A stretch of DNA of 42,378 nucleotides from Candidatus Pullichristensenella excrementigallinarum (lineage in GTDB: Bacteria > Bacillota > Clostridia > Christensenellales > Aristaeellaceae). The position numbers were made by a program, and so were the translations under genes. Every line of letters starts with the position of its first letter. Positions within the stretch are counted from its first letter, which is position 1. Shown here in pieces: positions 6,623 through 23,041 of this stretch. The stretch spans positions 1-42,378 of the forward strand of contig DVMU01000180.1 in the NCBI GenBank assembly GCA_018714825.1, in the 5' to 3' direction. Under the pieces are notes generated by a model, which saw nothing but the letters and a program-made list of their open reading frames with translations, made no database searches and was not told where the DNA came from.

Positions 6623-9600
6623 TTAATCGATTTCCCAATAGTAGTAATCGACGGGAGAGGCCTCCTTGATTGTGCCGTCGGTATAGATGATCTTGTGGAT
6701 TCCGGCATAGACCGTATCCACCTGGCTTTTATCGGGCATGGTGATGTAATCGGAATAGACGGTCTGACCGGGGGAGACGGTTTTTTCCGTCGTGCCGTAA
6801 TAGACCATGTCTTCTCCATAGATCGGATCGCCCCAGACGTCTACCGCGTACATGTACATTTCAAACGCCTTTATGGTCTTGCGCTTTGCCGTATTGGTGA
6901 CCTTTACGCGCATCCGGATGCGGTCGTTTCCCGGGAATTCCCATTGTCCGTAGCCTTCCAGAACCAGCGCGAATTCCGGTTCCGAATAATAGATGGCCGA
7001 ACCGCTGTTAAGGCATTCCAGCATTTCGAAGGTGGCGACATACTTTTCGGAATCCGAATCATAGATGCCGTTGGCCATTTTGAAAGCGTATACGGCCTGC
7101 GCGGTCTGATTTCCGAAAATTCCGTCGATTTCGCCGTCGTAATAGCCCATAAGATACAGCCGCGTCTGCAGATAGACGACATCGTTTCCCTCATCGCCAT
7201 TGGAAAGCTCCCGCAGGGGCCGGGAGGTGGGCTCGGCCGTGGGAGAAGAGGCGACGGGAAGCGAGGCCGAGGAGGTTCCCGAGCGCAGCAAGGTCACCGG
7301 CTGCTCGAACAGCGTCTCATAGGTATCGTAATCATAAACCCGCATGGTGAAGCTCAGTTCCCGGAAATTCTGCAAATCTCCCTGGCCCGAAAGGGGCTCA
7401 AAGAAGAAGTATTCGGGAATGGAAGCGCCGTCGTCCACATCGTAGATTCCGATTCCGTCCACTTCCACGCCGTCCGCGTATGCGTCCCGGATGGAAATGG
7501 CAATTGTATGGCCGGTTTGGTTTTCCATGGATACGTCGAAGCGGAGCTGTCCGTCGCTGGCGCGGAAGGAGGATTCGGTAAGCATGAGCCAGAGACCGTT
7601 GCGGTCGATGGGCACGATGCCCTCCACGCCGGAATCGATGGAGAATACCGCTTCGCCCGAAGCTTGGGAGGACCCGATGGAGGGAATAAAGACCGAACCC
7701 TGCCGGACAAAGGTGATGGGGATATCGAAAAGCGTTGAGTACGAGTTTGCGTCGATGACCCGCAGCGTGAGGCTTCCGGATTGCGCGTTCTGGTAGAGGC
7801 TGTGGGAGCCTTCCCTCACATCGGGAGAAACGAAGAAGGAATCGGAAAGGGAAGCGCCGTCGGGGATGTCAAAGATCCCGGCGCCGCCGCCGGCCTGACC
7901 GTCAACAAAGGATTCGGTGACCAGGACGGTAATCTCGCGACCGGAGTTGTTGGAAACATTGCCTTCAAAGCGGATCAGGGGATAATCCTCATAGTATCCG
8001 GGTTCGACCTCGAGGAACACGCCGCCCTGATCGATGAGGGTGTACATGCCGGAAGTGGGCTGCGGGGACGAGGAGGATGAAGAAGAAGAGGACGAAGACG
8101 AGGACGACGAGGAAGAAGCGGCGTTTGCGGGAACAAAGGCCGAACCCTGGCGCACAAAGGAGACGGGGACGTCAAAGAGCGTCGCGAAAGTGTTTGCGTC
8201 GATGACCCGGAGCGTGACCGTTCCGGATTGCGCGTTCAGGAAGCTATCCTGATCTTCTTCCTTGTTTTCGGGAGAAATGAAGAAGGAATCGGAAAAGGAA
8301 GCGCCGTCGGCAATCTCAAAGATCCCCGCGCCACCGGCGGCCTGGCCGTCAACAAAGGATTCGGTGACCAAGATGGAAATCTCATGGCCGGAGTTGTTGG
8401 AAACATTGCCTTCAAAGCGGATCAGGGGATAATCCTCATAGCGCCCGGGTTCGACCTCGAGGAACACGCCGCCCTGATCGATGAGGGTGTACATGCCGGA
8501 AGTGGGCTGCGGGGACGAGGAGGATGAAGACGAGGAAGAGGACGAGGAAGAAGCGGCGTTTGCGGGAACAAAGACCGAACCGTCTCTGACAAAATTGAGG
8601 GAGACGGTAAACAGAGTGTCGTAAGAATCGGCGTCGCTGACATCCAGCACGAGGGAAATGGATTGTGCGTTCTGGAAGATATCCTCGCCGCCGCGCCCCT
8701 CTTCGGGACAGACGAAGAAGTAGTCGGATTTGGAAGCGCCGTCGGCGACGTCGAAGATACCCCCGCCGCCGGTGGATTTCCCATCGACAAAGGAATTGGT
8801 GATGAAGATGGAGATTTCCTGGCCGGAGTAGTTGGAGATATTGCCGTCAAAGCGGATCATGGGGAAATCGTCATAATATCCGGGTTCGACCTCGAGGAAC
8901 ACGCCGCCCTGATCGATGAGGGTGTACATGCCGGAAGTGGGCTGCGGGGACGAGGAGGACGAAGACGAGGAGGACGAGGAAGAAGCGGCGTTTGCGGGAA
9001 CAAAGACCGAACCGTCCCTGACAAAATTGAGGGAGACGGTAAACAGAGTGTCGTAAGAATCGGCGTCGCTGACATCCAGCACGAGGGAAATGGACTGAGC
9101 ATCCTGGAAGATGTCCTCGCCGCCCATGCCGTCTTCAGAGCAGACAAAGAAGTATTCGGGAATGGAAGCGCCGTCGGCGACGTCGAAGATGCCTCCGCCG
9201 CCGGTGGATTTCCCATCGACAAAGGAATCCATGACAAAGATGGAAATTTCCTGGCCGGAGTAGTTGGAGATATTGCCGTCAAAGCGGATCATGGGATAAT
9301 CGTCGTAATATCCGGGTTCGACCTCGAGGAACACGCCGCCCTGATCGATGAGGGTATACATGCCGGAAGAGGGCTGCGTGGACGAGGAATTTCCCTGCGC
9401 AAGGGGATTTGCCAGCGAAACGGGGACGCTAAACAGCGTCTGGAAATTTTCGGAATTCCAGACCTCCAGCACAAAGGAAAGGTTTTGCGCGCCGGAGAGA
9501 TCAACGAAGTCGCCGGGGAGAGGTGTAAAGAAGAAATATTCGGGGATGGAGGAATTGTCGGCCACGTCGTAAATACCGATGCCGTCGACTTCCCGTCCAT

Positions 9601-10513
9601 CGGCAAAGACATCGTTTGCGGAAATGGAGATCGTATATCCGCTTTTGTTGACGAGCGAAACGTCAAAACGGAGCATGGGATACTCGGGATCGTAGGATAC
9701 TTCGGTCAATTCAAGATAGACGCCGTTTTGATCGATCAATACCGCGTCGCTTGTAGAAGAGGAGGAGGGCGGCGTTTCCCCGGAAGGCAGAGCGGCGTCC
9801 CCGGGATGGATGCCCTGGCGATAATCCTGCAAAGAGACCGCGTCTGCGCGGTCAACGCCCTGATACAGGCGCTTGACCTCTTCGATGTTTATCGCGAAAT
9901 TGAGATTTTGGATGACGCCTTCTCCGTCGTCATAGGAGGCGGAGGTTACGCCGATGACTTCGCCCTGATCGTTAAACAGCGCGCCGCCGCTGGAGCCGGA
10001 GGAAATGGGAGCGGTAAATTGAATGTATTCCACGCCGTATTCCTCAAACAGCGCGCTGATATTCCCCATGGAAACCGTGTTGAGAAGGCCCTTGGGGCTG
10101 CCGATGGCGACCACCTGCTCGGCCCGCTGCAGGCTTTCGCCGTCTCCCAGGGGAAGGGGCGTGCGATCCGTAGGCTCGGAGAAACCGAGGATGGCAAGAT
10201 CCGCCTCTTCATCCGCGGCATAGACAGTTTCCACGGTGTAGGAATACCCTTCGTCTGAGCGCGCAACGATTGTTTCGGAATCTTCCATCACATGATAATT
10301 GGTCACCAGAATATCGTTTTCAAAGGCGACAAATCCGCTTCCGGTGGCGATGGGGTCGCCGTATTCATCGTAAATTTCCAAAAGCAGGACGGATTTGGCC
10401 GCGTCGTTGATCGCGGTGACGTCGTCGGAAAAGGAGATTGTCTCCGCTAGGGAAGCCCAGGAAACAATGGGCAAAAGCGCGATGATAAGGATTGCGACGA
10501 GTACTTTCTTCAT
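6623..10513 (-). CDS. Secreted HtrA/S1C-like serine protease with six tandem beta-domain repeats, poly-Ser linkers and a C-terminal peptidoglycan-binding domain
   Basis: Signal peptide MKKVLVAILIIALLPIVSWASLAE; triad context TNYHVM / EADLAILG / APISSGSSGGALF; repeats GMYTLIDQGGVFLEVEPG; PG_binding_1-like GDEGNDVVYLQTRLYLMGYYDGEIDGIFGNQTAQAV. Confidence 0.88.
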   Translation of the reverse strand: MKKVLVAILIIALLPIVSWASLAETISFSDDVTAINDAAKSVLLLEIYDEYGDPIATGSGFVAFENDILVTNYHVMEDSETIVARSDEGYSYTVETVYAADEEADLAILGFSEPTDRTPLPLGDGESLQRAEQVVAIGSPKGLLNTVSMGNISALFEEYGVEYIQFTAPISSGSSGGALFNDQGEVIGVTSASYDDGEGVIQNLNFAINIEEVKRLYQGVDRADAVSLQDYRQGIHPGDAALPSGETPPSSSSTSDAVLIDQNGVYLELTEVSYDPEYPMLRFDVSLVNKSGYTISISANDVFADGREVDGIGIYDVADNSSIPEYFFFTPLPGDFVDLSGAQNLSFVLEVWNSENFQTLFSVPVSLANPLAQGNSSSTQPSSGMYTLIDQGGVFLEVEPGYYDDYPMIRFDGNISNYSGQEISIFVMDSFVDGKSTGGGGIFDVADGASIPEYFFVCSEDGMGGEDIFQDAQSISLVLDVSDADSYDTLFTVSLNFVRDGSVFVPANAASSSSSSSSSSSSPQPTSGMYTLIDQGGVFLEVEPGYYDDFPMIRFDGNISNYSGQEISIFITNSFVDGKSTGGGGIFDVADGASKSDYFFVCPEEGRGGEDIFQNAQSISLVLDVSDADSYDTLFTVSLNFVRDGSVFVPANAASSSSSSSSSSSSSPQPTSGMYTLIDQGGVFLEVEPGRYEDYPLIRFEGNVSNNSGHEISILVTESFVDGQAAGGAGIFEIADGASFSDSFFISPENKEEDQDSFLNAQSGTVTLRVIDANTFATLFDVPVSFVRQGSAFVPANAASSSSSSSSSSSSSSSSSPQPTSGMYTLIDQGGVFLEVEPGYYEDYPLIRFEGNVSNNSGREITVLVTESFVDGQAGGGAGIFDIPDGASLSDSFFVSPDVREGSHSLYQNAQSGSLTLRVIDANSYSTLFDIPITFVRQGSVFIPSIGSSQASGEAVFSIDSGVEGIVPIDRNGLWLMLTESSFRASDGQLRFDVSMENQTGHTIAISIRDAYADGVEVDGIGIYDVDDGASIPEYFFFEPLSGQGDLQNFRELSFTMRVYDYDTYETLFEQPVTLLRSGTSSASLPVASSPTAEPTSRPLRELSNGDEGNDVVYLQTRLYLMGYYDGEIDGIFGNQTAQAVYAFKMANGIYDSDSEKYVATFEMLECLNSGSAIYYSEPEFALVLEGYGQWEFPGNDRIRMRVKVTNTAKRKTIKAFEMYMYAVDVWGDPIYGEDMVYYGTTEKTVSPGQTVYSDYITMPDKSQVDTVYAGIHKIIYTDGTIKEASPVDYYYWEID
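7690..9370 (-). repeat. Four intragenic tandem repeats of about 432-447 bp
   Basis: Conserved 'ggttcgacctcgaggaacacgccgccctgatcgatgagggt' recurs at 8001, 8448, 8883 and 9315. Confidence 0.9.
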
Positions 10514-15288: not shown

Positions 15289-15460
15289 GGCTTCGCAAAA
15301 AAGGCGCTTGACAGGCTGCAGGGAGAGGCACAAATAGATACATGCTGAATGCATGTCCTCGGAGGGTTATGGCATGACGTGCAACCAATATATGGGAGCG
15401 ATTTTTCTTCACCTTGCTCCTCTGCAAAATCAAGCGCGACGTACACGCCGCCGCGCCCCT

Positions 15461-15641
15461 GCGTGTCAAAATTTTTTGACACGCTCCATGAAAATCTGCG
15501 GATTTTCATGGAAGGGGAAGAGACCTGCGGAAATCTGAAAATCTCCCGATTTTCCGGGCGATTTCCTGACGGGCGGAATTATTTTTCCTCCGCTTATGCT
15601 CCGGAAAAACCGAGCGCGACGTACACGCCGTCGCGCTCGAT
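15461..15641 (+). repeat. 181-bp structured intergenic repeat, copy 1
   Basis: Near-identical, by eye, to the reverse complement of 17221-17401; consecutive hairpins at 15461-15484, 15486-15511, about 15529-15567 and 15611-15639. Confidence 0.93.
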
Positions 15642-15660
15642 TTGTATGATGGTGTATGAT

Positions 15661-15713
15661 GGCTCCGAACGGAGCTTTTTCGGCAAGCAGAGAGGGGGCC
15701 GAAGCCCCCTTCA
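15661..15713 (+). terminator. Two short hairpins in the convergent gyrA/RpiB-like intergenic region
   Basis: ggctccgaacggagcttttt and agggggccgaagccccct; the first has a T run on +. Confidence 0.5.
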
Positions 15714-15720
15714 AATCAAA

Positions 15721-16302
15721 TTAGTGCAATTCCGGTTCCGGCTTGTCGATCAATACCAGCGGATAGTCGCCCAGGTGCTTGACCTTGAAGCCGTTCTTCT
15801 TGTATTCCTCGTAGTCGAACGCATTGAGCTCATCGACTGCGACCTTGTGGAACTCATAGAAGTTCGGGCAATATTCATAGCCATCGCCGAAGTTGTGATA
15901 CAGATAGGCGTCGGCGATGTCGCAGCCCATGGCCGGAGAGACATAGAACGCGCCCATGGAAAGGACGTTGACATTGTTGCCGGTAATGGCGCGCAGCGCG
16001 GCGGGAACGCTCTCGACCACGCCCGCGTGCACCCTGGGGCACTTGCTGGCGCCGATGTGAATGCCCATGCCGGTGCCGCAGAAGATCAGCGCGCGCTCGA
16101 ATTCGCCTTCGGCGATCATCGCGCCAACGCGCAGGCCCAGGCGATGGAACATCCATTCGGTGTTTTCCACATTGGGATCGGTCACGCCGATGTCGGTAAT
16201 TTCCCAGCCCCACTTGCGCAAGTGCTCGCACACCGCCTCCTTGAGCGGGTATCCGGCAAAGTCTGCAGCCACGAGTATCTGCTTGTCCTTGACCATTTTC
16301 AT
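15721..16302 (-). CDS. RpiB/LacA/LacB family sugar-phosphate isomerase
   Basis: ILVAADFAGYPLKEAVCEHLRKWGWEITDIGV, FCGTGMGIHIGASKCPRVHAGVV, NVNVLSMGAFYV; alternative start at the third codon (MVKDKQ). Confidence 0.85.
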   Translation of the reverse strand: MKMVKDKQILVAADFAGYPLKEAVCEHLRKWGWEITDIGVTDPNVENTEWMFHRLGLRVGAMIAEGEFERALIFCGTGMGIHIGASKCPRVHAGVVESVPAALRAITGNNVNVLSMGAFYVSPAMGCDIADAYLYHNFGDGYEYCPNFYEFHKVAVDELNAFDYEEYKKNGFKVKHLGDYPLVLIDKPEPELH

Positions 16303-16439
16303 AGGCTTTTTCCTCCTTATTCTTCAAAAGAAGCGGTGCAAAGACCGCTTCTTCGGATGCGATGAAATCCCATACGCATACCTACCCGAGCAAGCGAAGA
16401 TCGCTTCCCGGATAAGCGCTATTTGATTTTTCCCAAAGG

Positions 16440-16934
16440 CTAGACCGCCTTTTTCAGCCCGCTCAGGAGCACGCAGCCGCCTTCTCCATTGGGAGTGCGC
16501 ACATAGCCCCAGCGCCCGCTGGTCTGATAGAGGATGACCAATTCATCCTGGCTGAGCGTTCCGGTCTTGGAAGAACTGGTGCTGGGCTTGGAATACATCT
16601 TCAGAGAAGAAGATTGCACATAATAGATGTTGTCCAGCCTTGCCGCGCCGTAATAGCTCAGGTAAGTTTTGTAGATATAACCCGATACGCCGCGCGAGGA
16701 GCAGACCTGAATCCAGCCGCCCACATTGTCCAAATAGAACAGCTTCGTTCCCGCGCGCAGCTTGCCGATGATCTCCCCTTCCGTTCCGGAAGGCAGCGAA
16801 TGCACACGGACATAATCCCCCGTCACCTTGACAAGACTAATGATGCGTGCCTTGGCCGCAAAGGCATTGGCGGGCAACAGAAGGGACAAAATCAGCGCCA
16901 AACAAAGCGCCATGCGCAACATACGCTTGATCAT
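16440..16934 (-). CDS. Secreted protein with two bacterial SH3 (SH3b) domains
   Basis: Signal peptide MIKRMLRMALCLALILSLLLPANAFA; DYVRVHSLPSGTEGEIIGKLRAGTKLFYLDNVGGWIQV and SSLKMYSKPSTSSSKTGTLSQDELVILYQTSGRWGYV. Confidence 0.8.
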   Translation of the reverse strand: MIKRMLRMALCLALILSLLLPANAFAAKARIISLVKVTGDYVRVHSLPSGTEGEIIGKLRAGTKLFYLDNVGGWIQVCSSRGVSGYIYKTYLSYYGAARLDNIYYVQSSSLKMYSKPSTSSSKTGTLSQDELVILYQTSGRWGYVRTPNGEGGCVLLSGLKKAV

Positions 16935-16954
16935 GAAAACACCTCCCCTTCCTT

Positions 16955-16983
16955 ATTCTAACATATTCCATGGCAAAAGTAAA
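16955..16983 (-). promoter_or_regulatory. Putative sigma-A promoter of the SH3 gene (TTTACT - 17 bp - TAGAAT)
   Basis: Reverse strand: -35 at 16978-16983, -10 at 16955-16960. Confidence 0.6.
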
Positions 16984-17021
16984 CTTCTCTAAGCACATCC
17001 GAAAAAAAATCTTAGAGAAGT
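16983..17021. repeat. Perfect 11-bp inverted repeat at the SH3 promoter
   Basis: acttctctaag (16983-16993) and cttagagaagt (17011-17021), 17-nt spacer. Confidence 0.85.
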
Positions 17022-17076
17022 CCAAATTTCAACACAAACAGGAGGGCGCACAGGGCCGCAGACTGCCCAAAGAGTT

Positions 17077-17229
17077 CTGTGGGCAGGCCCTTCCCAATCG
17101 AGCGCATGAAAATTCGCAGATTTTCATGGAGCGCGTCAAAATCCTTTTTCGACACGCAGAGAGGCCATGCTTGCGCATGGCCTCAGACTGTCGAAAAAGC
17201 CTGTGGGCAGGCCCTTCCCAATCGAGCGC
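17077..17229 (-). repeat. Partial/rearranged copy of the structured repeat plus a 29-bp direct repeat
   Basis: ctgtgggcaggcccttcccaatcgagcgc at 17077-17105 and 17201-17229; hairpins catgaaaat..attttcatg (17105-17128) and gaggccatgc ttgc gcatggcctc (17161-17184). Confidence 0.85.
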
Positions 17230-17401
17230 GGCGGCGTGTACGTCGCGCTCGGTTTTTCCGGAGCATAAGCGAAGGAAAAACAATTCCTTCCGTCAGGAAA
17301 TCGCCCGGAAAATCCAGAGATTTTCAGATTTCCGCAGTCCTCTTCCCCTTCCATGAAAATCCGCAGATTTTCATGGAGCGTGTCAAAGAATTTTGACACG
17401 C
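17221..17401 (-). repeat. 181-bp structured intergenic repeat, copy 2 (inverted relative to copy 1)
   Basis: Reverse complement aligns end to end with 15461-15641, same length. Confidence 0.93.
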
Positions 17402-17429
17402 AGAGGCCATGCTCGCGCATGGCCTCTGC
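17400..17429 (-). terminator. 13-bp perfect stem-loop just downstream of the DUF378 gene
   Basis: gcagaggccatgc tcgc gcatggcctctgc. Confidence 0.55.
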
Positions 17430-19288: not shown

Positions 19289-22200
19289 TCACTGCATCAG
19301 TTGGCGAATGGTTTCCGAATCCACGACGGCGTTTTCATCGTTGGGATCGAGCACCGGCAATTGCGCGATCGTGGGATCGTCCGCATTGCGCTGGTTAAAA
19401 TCCTGCTGGAAGCGCATCACCGCCGTGCGGGTTCCCAAATCAAACACGCCCTGCTGGGGAGCGTCGCTCTCATAGAGATACCCACGGCTTACCAGAATGT
19501 TCTGCAAGGCCAGGATCACATCCGAAGAGGAATTGCGATCGATGGTCGAGATGGTCTCCGGCGGATTGGTGGGATTCTCCACCGGCGGGTCCGTGGGATT
19601 CTCCGCCGGTGGATCGGTCGCTTCGGGAGCGGCCAGGGCAAAGCGCACGGTGGAATACTGCATATCCGCTTCCGTGCCGCCCACGGGAATCGCGCCCACA
19701 TACAGGGTGTAGACCACGCCGGAGGTCAAATTCGAGGCGGGCGCTTCCCAAGAAGTCTTGTCCGTGGTCTGCTGGGGCACCAATTCACTGCCGTTGCTGT
19801 CCACCAATCGAACCACATACGTCTGCACGTCGCCCTGGGCCGACCAGGAAAAGCGCACCGCGTCCGCAAAGTAGAGCACGTCGCCCTCAGAATAGCTCTG
19901 GCCGGAGCCCTGGATGCTCGGCGCGGAAATCTCGCTGACCGGCGGCTGGGTGACGGGCGGCTCGGTTACTTCGGGAAGGTCGCGGGCAAAGCTGAAGTTG
20001 GCCACTTTGACATCCGCCTCCGTGCCGCCCACGGGAATCGCGCCCACATACAGGGTATAGACCACGCCTTCGGAAAGGCTCGAGATGTCCACGTTCATGG
20101 AGGTGTTGGCGGTGGTTGTCTCGTTGATCAGGCCGTTGACGCTGTCCTCAAGCCGGACAATGTAGCCCTGCACCTCGCCTTCGGCCGACCAGGAAAGAGT
20201 CGTCGAGGAAGAGAGGAAGTGGATTCCCTCTTCGGTGCGGGAGACATTGCCCGCCTGGATGGTGGGCTCGGAGATCTCGCTGACCGGCGGCTCGGTTTCC
20301 TCCGGAACGTCCAGGGTAAATTGCACCGAGGAATAGACGATGTCTTCTTCCGTGCCGCCCGCGGGGATCGCGCCCACGCGCAATTCATACACCACGCCCG
20401 GCGTCAGGGAGGAGGCGGGGAAGTCGTAATAGTTTTCGGCCGTATCCACCGGGCCGAGGGAGCCTCCGTTGGAATCGGTCAGTATCAGGCGATAGCCCGC
20501 GACGTCTCCCTCCGTGGCCCAGGAAATCCGGGTCGAACCCTCGACATAGCTCACGCCGTTTTCCACGGATACCAGGCTGCCGACCGTGATTTCCGGCGCG
20601 GAGACCTCGCTGACGGGCGGCTGGGTGACGGGCGGCTCGGTGGCCGCGGCCTTGGTCGAGAAGAACATATAGCTCGAACGGGCATCTGCTTCCGATCCGC
20701 CCGCGGGGATGGCAGTGACTTCGATCTCATAGACCAATCCCGGCGTGAGGATGGAGGCGTCGAAGGAAAGGCTGGTGGAGGTCACGGCCTGATCCTGCAG
20801 AACCTGACCGTTGCTGTCGGTAATCTTTACCCGATAGGTGGCGTTTTCGCCCGCGTCCCAGGAGATGGTGACCTGGCCGCTGACGATGTAGATTTCGTCT
20901 TCCACGCCGTCATAGCTGCTGAAGGAGATGACCGGGTCGGTGATGCCCTGGGAAGGATTCTCGGTCGGGGTCGCGGAAGGCGTTTCCACCGGATCGAGAG
21001 AGTTGACGTAGTTTTCGAGATATTGCAGGGTCTTGGCGTCGCACAGGCCGGTGACCTTCAGCGTGTTCGCGCCCCATTGCTGGTTGACCAGTTCCTGGAA
21101 GCGCGTGACCGCCGCCTGGGTGTTCTGCCCGTACTGGCCGTCCGCGGAGGAGAGCAGGCCCAGATACACCAGCTGCTCCTGCACAAACCGAATCGATTCT
21201 TCGGGGGAATCTGGGCCGACCAGGACATCGTCCTCCCCGGCCTCGCCGGGATCTTCGGTGGGCAGAGCCGTCGGCGTGGCGGTCGGCGTGGCAGTCGGCG
21301 TGGCGGTCGGGGTGGCGGTTGGCGTGGCGGTCGGAGTGGCCGTGGCCTGCTGCATCTTCCAGTTGACGGCGTCCTCGAGATAGCCCAGGGTTCGGGCATC
21401 GCACAGGCCGGTCACTTCCAGGGTGCCCGCGCCCAGCTGGCTGTTGACCCAGTTCTGGAAGTATTTGACCGCGCTGATCGTGGAAGGCCCGTATACGCCG
21501 TCCGCCTGATCCAGAAGCTCAAGATAGACCAACTGTTCCTGCACGAACCGGATGGCGATGGGATCGGAATTCTGATCCACATAGTCGCCCTCGCTGGGCT
21601 CCTGGGTGGGCTCGAGGGTGGGAAGCTCCGTAGGCGCCGAAGTGGCGGTCGCGCTGGGCGAAGCTGAGGGCTTGTTGGCCTCCCACCACTGGGTGACATA
21701 CTCGAGATAGCGAAGCGTCAGTTCATCGACCTTTCCGGTAACTTGGAGCACATTCTTGCCCAAGAGGCGGTTGACATAATCCTGGAATTCCCATACCGCA
21801 CCGCTGGTGGCGGAGCCGTACACGCCGTCCACCTTGTCGAGCATTCCCAGCCGCACCAGGTAATCCTGCACCAGGCGGATCAGGGTCGGGGAGGAATTCT
21901 CGTCGATCACGGGCTGCGCCGTCGCGGTGGGAGTGGGCGTCGCGGTGGGGGTATTGGGCTTGACCGAGAGCGGATACTGATCCAGCCAGTACAGCGTCTT
22001 CGGACCGGCGATGCCATCCACGGTCAATCCCGCCTGATAGGTGCTGTTCATATAGCTCTGGAAATCGCGGATCGCCTGCTTGGTGGCGCTGTCGTAACTT
22101 CCGGTGGCGCCGTTTTTGTTCAGCCAGCCCAGTTCAATCAGCTGCCATTGGAGATTGGCGATCTCCGAAGGCGAGGAATTCGAATTGATCACCTGGTCGG

Positions 22201-22987
22201 TCGGGCGCGGCGTGGGAGCAGGCGTGGGCGTCGGCGTGCGCGAAATATCTTCCAACGCCTCAAATTCATTGTCCACATTGCCCTGATAGATATAGTCCAT
22301 CCACGAAAGCTCCGGATCCTTAATCGGGGCGTAGGACGCGGAGGCATAGGGCGTGGGAGAAGGCGTTTCTTCCGGCATCCAGGAAGCGTTCAGAGAGGGC
22401 GAGGGCGTCTGGCGAATATCGGAGGTGTCAAAGGCATTGGAAAGCAGGCGGATCAGCAAAAATGCCACCGCCAGCACCACCACCGCCGCCGCGCCGATTA
22501 GGATCGCGAGCTGCCGGGTTGTGCGCCGGGTTTCATCGCCGCCATCGGAAATTTCCTGCGCGTGAGAGGCGGACTTGCGCTGCGCGATATAGGCGGTTCC
22601 GTTTTCCTCAAAGAAGAAATGCCGCTTTTTTGGGTCTTCAACTCGCTCGACCGAAGCGCGCAGCTTTTGAATGCCCTGTTCAAAGGCGTCCTCCGCGCCC
22701 GGCACGGGCACGACGGAGCCGTCGTTGAGGCGCTTGGCGCTCTCGCGCGGCAGATATTCGCGAATGCGCAATTTGGCTTCGCGCTTGGTATCATACGCCA
22801 TATAGACGATGCCCGTGGCATCCTGCCCCATCGCCCGGCCTACCAGGAACCGGTTATGATAGAGCATCGTGCCCGGCAAAAGCTGGATCTGCGGCACGGC
22901 GGCGCGGGAATCGCGGCCGCAATGGGGACATACGTCCGCTCCGCCCAGATCCTCAAAGCAATACATGCAAAGGTTCTCGTAAGCCAT
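19289..22987 (-). CDS. Membrane protein: N-terminal zinc ribbon plus truncated kinase N-lobe, TM helix, four PG-binding domains, four Fn3-like repeats and a C-terminal PG-binding-like domain
   Basis: CMYCFEDLGGADVCPHC; LPGTMLYHNRFLVGRAMGQDATGIVYMAYDTKREAKLRIREYLP; TM QLAILIGAAAVVVLAVAFLLIRLL; repeated IRFVQEQLVYLGLL..DGxYGxxT; repeated EPPVTQPPVSEISAP linkers; start MAYENL after ggaggagg. Confidence 0.85.
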   Translation of the reverse strand: MAYENLCMYCFEDLGGADVCPHCGRDSRAAVPQIQLLPGTMLYHNRFLVGRAMGQDATGIVYMAYDTKREAKLRIREYLPRESAKRLNDGSVVPVPGAEDAFEQGIQKLRASVERVEDPKKRHFFFEENGTAYIAQRKSASHAQEISDGGDETRRTTRQLAILIGAAAVVVLAVAFLLIRLLSNAFDTSDIRQTPSPSLNASWMPEETPSPTPYASASYAPIKDPELSWMDYIYQGNVDNEFEALEDISRTPTPTPAPTPRPTDQVINSNSSPSEIANLQWQLIELGWLNKNGATGSYDSATKQAIRDFQSYMNSTYQAGLTVDGIAGPKTLYWLDQYPLSVKPNTPTATPTPTATAQPVIDENSSPTLIRLVQDYLVRLGMLDKVDGVYGSATSGAVWEFQDYVNRLLGKNVLQVTGKVDELTLRYLEYVTQWWEANKPSASPSATATSAPTELPTLEPTQEPSEGDYVDQNSDPIAIRFVQEQLVYLELLDQADGVYGPSTISAVKYFQNWVNSQLGAGTLEVTGLCDARTLGYLEDAVNWKMQQATATPTATPTATPTATPTATPTATPTALPTEDPGEAGEDDVLVGPDSPEESIRFVQEQLVYLGLLSSADGQYGQNTQAAVTRFQELVNQQWGANTLKVTGLCDAKTLQYLENYVNSLDPVETPSATPTENPSQGITDPVISFSSYDGVEDEIYIVSGQVTISWDAGENATYRVKITDSNGQVLQDQAVTSTSLSFDASILTPGLVYEIEVTAIPAGGSEADARSSYMFFSTKAAATEPPVTQPPVSEVSAPEITVGSLVSVENGVSYVEGSTRISWATEGDVAGYRLILTDSNGGSLGPVDTAENYYDFPASSLTPGVVYELRVGAIPAGGTEEDIVYSSVQFTLDVPEETEPPVSEISEPTIQAGNVSRTEEGIHFLSSSTTLSWSAEGEVQGYIVRLEDSVNGLINETTTANTSMNVDISSLSEGVVYTLYVGAIPVGGTEADVKVANFSFARDLPEVTEPPVTQPPVSEISAPSIQGSGQSYSEGDVLYFADAVRFSWSAQGDVQTYVVRLVDSNGSELVPQQTTDKTSWEAPASNLTSGVVYTLYVGAIPVGGTEADMQYSTVRFALAAPEATDPPAENPTDPPVENPTNPPETISTIDRNSSSDVILALQNILVSRGYLYESDAPQQGVFDLGTRTAVMRFQQDFNQRNADDPTIAQLPVLDPNDENAVVDSETIRQLMQ
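19610..20960 (-). repeat. Four tandem Fn3-like repeat units (about 340 bp each)
   Basis: Recurring 'gcgcccacatacagggt(g/a)tagaccacgcc'-type segments near 19691, 20041, 20371, 20705. Confidence 0.75.
21270..21341 (-). repeat. 12-bp tandem repeat x6 coding Thr-Ala-Thr-Pro linker
   Basis: gtcggcgtggcg units at 21270, 21282, 21294, 21306, 21318, 21330. Confidence 0.9.
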
Positions 22988-23041
22988 GGAGTCCTCCTCC
23001 TTCTCGCCTGCGGACAAGGGAAAATCTTGTCCGTTCCCTCT

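Follow-up and report, generated by a model that had tools for sequence, protein, structure and literature searches.

An order-wide, apparently undescribed MITE family, probably moved by IS1182-type transposases, that targets terminators and duplicates the whole hairpin

IS1272 and TnSha1, members of the IS1182 family with terminal repeats of about 16 bp, target stem-loops, often intrinsic terminators, and recognise them by structure rather than by sequence (PMC5678879, PMC4923244). The targets of IS1272 are variable in size, from 21 to 85 bp, and on insertion it deletes the target hairpin and takes its place without any duplication; duplication of the whole hairpin figures in the IS1272 model as 'pathway b', a branch that is merely hypothetical (PMC5678879). 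TnSha1 has been reported at one terminator in both orientations (PMC5678879, PMC4923244). The BOX, RUP and SPRITE repeats of pneumococci are short, highly folded and partly modular, are proposed to be mobilised by insertion sequences, and some of them are enriched close to the 3' ends of genes (PMC3049150).

Here we describe repeats in a 42,378-nucleotide stretch of DNA (the window) from Candidatus Pullichristensenella excrementigallinarum. We believe that they belong to an order-wide and apparently undescribed MITE family linked with transposition of the IS1182 type, in which terminators are the targets and the whole hairpin is duplicated; no description of this family was found in the open-access literature. 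The features of the window on which the account draws are these:

15401-15456, plus strand: 3' fragment of another copy (P3 remnant and P4), fused head-to-tail with element 1
15459-15690, plus strand: element 1, full length, 232 bp, 3' of gyrA in the convergent gap toward rpiB; its parts, in order, are P0, P1, P2 (nested, with a CGGGC bulge), P3, P4, a subterminal stem and a diverged right end
15459-15474, plus strand: left terminal repeat of element 1, CTGCGTGTCAAAATTT
15691-15713, no strand assigned: GC-rich hairpin GGGGGCCGAAGCCCCC, abutting element 1 at its right end, toward rpiB
17059-17159, minus strand: element 3, internally deleted, with P0 and P1 joined to the right end ...GGGCAGTCTG
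17162-17183, minus strand: target-site duplication downstream of element 2, hairpin AGGCCATGCGCAAGCATGGCCT, 21 of 22 positions identical
17184-17403, minus strand: element 2, full length, 220 bp, sense behind the DUF378 gene
17184-17200, minus strand: right terminal repeat of element 2, GCTTTTTCGACAGTCTG (reverse complement CAGACTGTCGAAAAAGC)
17404-17425, minus strand: target-site duplication upstream of element 2, hairpin AGGCCATGCGCGAGCATGGCCT

The initial annotation of this DNA had recognised a pair of inverted, near-identical repeats, and these are real: the arms at 15455-15642 and 17220-17407, 188 nt long and separated by 1577 nt, are 94% complementary. The 181-bp unit that it proposed is indeed repeated but was called too short, the termini giving elements of 232 bp and 220 bp. 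The string of hairpins is as it described, the inverted-repeat region folding as RNA with z = -6.7 (0 of 200 shuffles equally good), and the neighbouring genes are those it named, RpiB (PF02502), SH3_3 (PF08239), gyrA and DUF378. It also took a changed loop in the second hairpin of copy 2 as a hint of selection on structure; on its own strand that loop reads TGCG, as in copy 1, CGCA being the reverse complement, so the argument falls with the strand-reading error. Both window copies are sense-oriented behind their own upstream gene, and they are mutually inverted because each lies sense behind a gene of the opposite strand; flipping of the enclosed segment by recombination, which the initial annotation had raised as a possibility, is unneeded as an explanation.

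The hairpin framing element 2 reads, over its two copies, AGGCCATGCGC(G/A)AGCATGGCCT, and element 3 lies directly behind the second of them (17162-17183). Element 1 shows no recognisable duplication; a second copy of the hairpin GGGGGCCGAAGCCCCC was not detected. The junction between element 1 and the fragment at 15401-15456 recurs elsewhere in the host genome (L052, L053, L054 and L055; junction GCCGCCGCGCCCCTGCGTG), each time a truncated copy joined to a full one, which looks like the spread of a dimeric element. Just past the gyrA terminator, at about 15300-15322, the window carries GGCGCTTGACAGGCTG, which resembles an IS1182 right end and is possibly the scar of an earlier insertion. Farther out are two large repetitive reading frames on the minus strand, one of 1296 aa (6623-10513) with tandem repeats of about 432-447 bp at 7404-9577 that are 75-90% identical, the other (19289-23017) with 330-348-bp repeats at 19608-21472 and a 12-bp tandem array at 21244-21343.

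As the initial annotation had expected, there are further copies. In the host genome, whose 2.18 Mb are spread over 225 contigs at about 92% completeness, there are at least 41 matches that are 118 nt or longer, and fragments besides, about 45 overall, and this is a minimum because some 12 contig ends fall inside or right beside a copy. Comparison of flanks among copies places the true ends at CTGCGTGTCAAAA... and ...CTTTTTCGACAGTCTG and gives a full element of about 216-232 bp, far too short for a transposase gene and hence non-autonomous. The label MITE-like thus proves apt for an element that is repeated, short (below the ~600 bp of the class), bounded by terminal repeats and accompanied by duplications, but the true ends, the flanking hairpin duplications and the IS1182 terminal repeats had been missed.

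Within the family, a covariance model of P1-P4 finds matches in 96 of 300 genomes, and in 29 of the 50 genera sampled; it also finds them in 35 of 396 genomes from other families of the order and, elsewhere in the class, only weakly and in few genomes; viral contigs gave no match to the core pattern. The named relatives with matches are ruminant-gut Clostridia MAGs, among them RGIG6213, with several dozen matches, many at contig ends. Three of the weak matches from other orders of the class (L231, L232 and L233) have a P4-like hairpin, GACGTACATGCCGYC, in common and little else, and a wider superfamily of elements bearing this hairpin may exist. Within the host genome, L063 (C86:6336) and L090 (C155:4043) are derivatives shortened by internal deletion, with both ends still in place; the two hairpins flanking L063 are similar, not identical, and would suggest that deletion derivatives may still be mobile.

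The earlier observation that the repeats trail the 3' ends of genes extends to the family. At sites where both flanking genes point the same way, to which the orientation test was limited, 35 elements are sense and 8 antisense (p = 4e-5). Gene context was taken from codon-scored calling, length-based ORF calling having been dropped for the wrong neighbours it gave in GC-rich DNA.

The interior of the element consists of four hairpins (P1-P4). Across 37 copies, 98% of stem cells are paired and 40 of 43 pairs show double changes, in an alignment that was fitted to the covariance model; pairing falls to 41-60% in slid controls, and a MAFFT alignment of G000 (the host) and G002 alone gives double changes in 17 of 43 pairs. 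The idea that structure is preserved is thus borne out across relatives. Functional RNA stems tolerate G-U far better than A-C. Among 3975 stem cells in 95 copies from across genera we counted 43 G-U (1.1%) against 62 A-C, and within the genome 18 G-U against about 17 A-C, two non-pair positions being left out; a small tRNA control gave 11 G-U and 0 A-C in 148 cells, ARAGORN itself favouring pairs. With G-U no commoner than A-C, it looks as if the stems are kept up as palindromes in DNA and not as RNA, and their upkeep looks like the work either of selection on folded DNA in transposition or of template-switch correction.

Consider the latter, in which one arm of a quasipalindrome is copied onto the other during replication and pairing is kept without selection. 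Such correction would account for stems that are almost purely Watson-Crick, with few wobbles, and that vary, within the genome, five times less than the unpaired parts (2.3% versus 11.6%), and the inverted loops TTTCT and AGAAA seen in the duplicated hairpins of one locus also favour it. Correction alone, however, would preserve neither the asymmetric CGGGC bulge of the nested P2, which is kept across genera, nor the sequence of the P4 loop. Because loops and bulge are conserved, some selection is indicated, and we regard upkeep without selection as possible but doubtful.

Less probable still is that the string of hairpins is a functional RNA, a 3' UTR element or sRNA that was spread by transposition and whose stems are under RNA-level selection. 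The sense orientation behind genes, the strong compensatory change, the stability of the predicted fold, and the conservation of the CGGGC bulge and of loops such as GACGTACAYGCCGYC all speak for such an RNA; the G-U pairs, which do not exceed A-C across genera or within the genome, speak against it, as does Rfam 15, in which the window finds no match at gathering score and nothing relevant up to E = 1. The initial annotation, which recognised no named family, is upheld at either threshold. Overall, the stems appear to be kept as Watson-Crick DNA palindromes, and an RNA function we judge unlikely.

On either side of many elements stands a copy of the same terminator hairpin, which is specific to the locus, and the duplication ends at the hairpin feet. 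Duplications were called from flank-versus-flank alignments at the 99% level of cross-locus controls; in the host genome 16 of 29 copies lie above it, with hairpins of 20-39 bp that abut the element. From the multi-genus set of 95 copies, 86 had both flanks, and 46 of these carry duplications of 15-45 bp (median 29 bp). Set against 60 shuffles each, 42 of the 46 duplicated hairpins fold better than 59 or more of them, and the overhang between hairpin foot and duplication end has a median of 0 nt. The DNA 3' of the right-hand hairpin is T-rich (4.7 T per 10 nt, versus 2.7 after the left-hand copy), in line with an intrinsic terminator. About half of the copies, being older, tandem or rearranged, have no recognisable duplication. 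At L041 (about 7700-8060 of host contig C123), the locus with the TTTCT and AGAAA loops, the arms of the duplicated hairpins are identical, and the loop difference suggests loop inversion or template switching within the palindrome.

The hairpin targets vary in sequence from locus to locus, and the landing site seems to be set by the shape of the target rather than by a fixed length. Standard DDE transposition duplicates a target of near-fixed length; here the duplication is the target hairpin, whatever its size at a given locus, and structure-guided target choice becomes directly testable on dozens of natural insertions and empty sites.

These empty sites bear on how the hairpin pairs arose. 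In G087, one gene end reads hairpin, element, hairpin, TTTTTT; the orthologous gene ends of three congeners (G220, G214 and G018) have a single terminator hairpin with its T tract and are without the element, and the same holds for the gyrA ends of four genus mates (G001, G002, G005 and G006), each with a single terminator and the element absent. Because the empty orthologous sites carry a single hairpin, the pair was most likely produced by insertion. That elements instead slipped between pre-existing double terminators, with no duplication on insertion, could be imagined from the many copies that lie between convergent genes, but it is very improbable, since paired hairpins are identical within a locus and unlike those of other loci, pairs also frame copies between codirectional genes, and the orthologous empty sites hold one hairpin. 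Least credible of all is that a RAYT (Y1) transposase moves the repeats as palindromes of the REP/BIME type, the other half of the initial annotation's suggestion: the repeats are extragenic, palindromic and high in copy number, but a search for Y1_Tnp (PF01797) in the roughly 92%-complete host genome was negative, and the present elements have terminal inverted repeats and duplicate whole hairpins, whereas IS200/REP transposition leaves no target duplication.

IS1182-family transposases (NF033551, above cut-off) occur in G000, G098, G028, G036, G214 and others; the host genome itself has three IS1182 pieces, all ending at contig breaks, with no intact copy assembled. The ends of these IS read CAGNCTGTCAAAAAAGG or CAGACCGTTGACAAAG, and a duplicated whole hairpin frames the IS, too, in G098 and G028. 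The imperfect terminal repeats of the MITE (CAG-CTGTC-AAAAAG) match IS1182-family ends in the same genomes, the right end being identical to those of G000 and G214 at 14-16 of 17 positions; among 200,000 random 17-mers, 3 reach 14 matches to IS ends. The MITE core was absent from the IS1182 elements examined, and the left and right terminal repeats showed no significant genus-by-genus co-evolution (1159 of 5040 permutations). SINE-like retrotransposition was considered and dropped, both ends being defined by terminal repeats common to IS1182 elements. Two IS1182 copies, L124 (G036) and L146 (G214), are flanked by hairpins that differ from each other, which may reflect recombination between copies or insertion between a pair of terminators. 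Judged by the common terminal repeats, mobilisation by IS1182-type transposases is the most likely course, and that the repeats are non-autonomous MITEs moved in trans by DDE transposases of this family we hold with considerable confidence.

From what is observed, namely the copies, their ends, the duplications, the empty sites and the terminal repeats common with IS1182, a general pathway can be proposed. The palindrome of an intrinsic terminator would be recognised as a hairpin or cruciform, and the transposase would join both 3' ends of the element to the hairpin at its two 5' feet. The whole hairpin would then be copied as the gap is repaired, so that one hairpin lies upstream of the element and the other, followed by the T tract, downstream. 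The gene would still have its terminator after insertion and merely a longer 3' UTR, which probably permits copies to accumulate. The internal hairpins would most likely be kept for the help that the element's DNA, by being folded or bound, gives to transposition. A stronger version, in which the reaction relies on folded DNA at both of its ends, with the transposase cutting the 5' feet of extruded terminator cruciforms, hairpin size dictating duplication length and the element's Watson-Crick hairpin chain needed as folded DNA, we put forward only tentatively, as somewhat more probable to be wrong than right. If true, this two-ended system would join the hypothesised duplication branch of IS1272 to an order-wide 'structured-DNA' MITE core.

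The core is a repeat that seems not to have been catalogued before. Compensatory change has preserved it throughout an order of gut bacteria, and it is one of the few cases in which DNA-level conservation of hairpins might be told from RNA-level conservation. Its copies break assemblies and lengthen the 3' UTRs of many genes.

Several known systems share parts of this behaviour. Group IIC introns also insert in the sense orientation at intrinsic terminators; they are ribozyme retroelements without target duplication, and the window has no Rfam intron match to a group II ribozyme core. REP/BIME elements are likewise extragenic palindromes in many copies, but with RAYT they rely on another transposase class, and they lack ends defined by terminal repeats as well as target duplication. 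BOX, RUP and SPRITE are similar in being short, highly folded repeats proposed as IS-mobilised; RUP has been tied to IS630-Spn1 and BOX to ISSpn2, duplication of a whole terminator is unreported for those repeats, and they are found in a few streptococci (PMC3049150), whereas the present family spans an order. As with IS1272, the hairpin target is recognised by structure, targets here differing in sequence and duplications ending at the hairpin feet. Unlike IS1272 and TnSha1, the present elements duplicate the whole hairpin instead of deleting it, and insert mostly in the sense orientation; they fit the duplication branch, pathway b, of the IS1272 model (PMC5678879).
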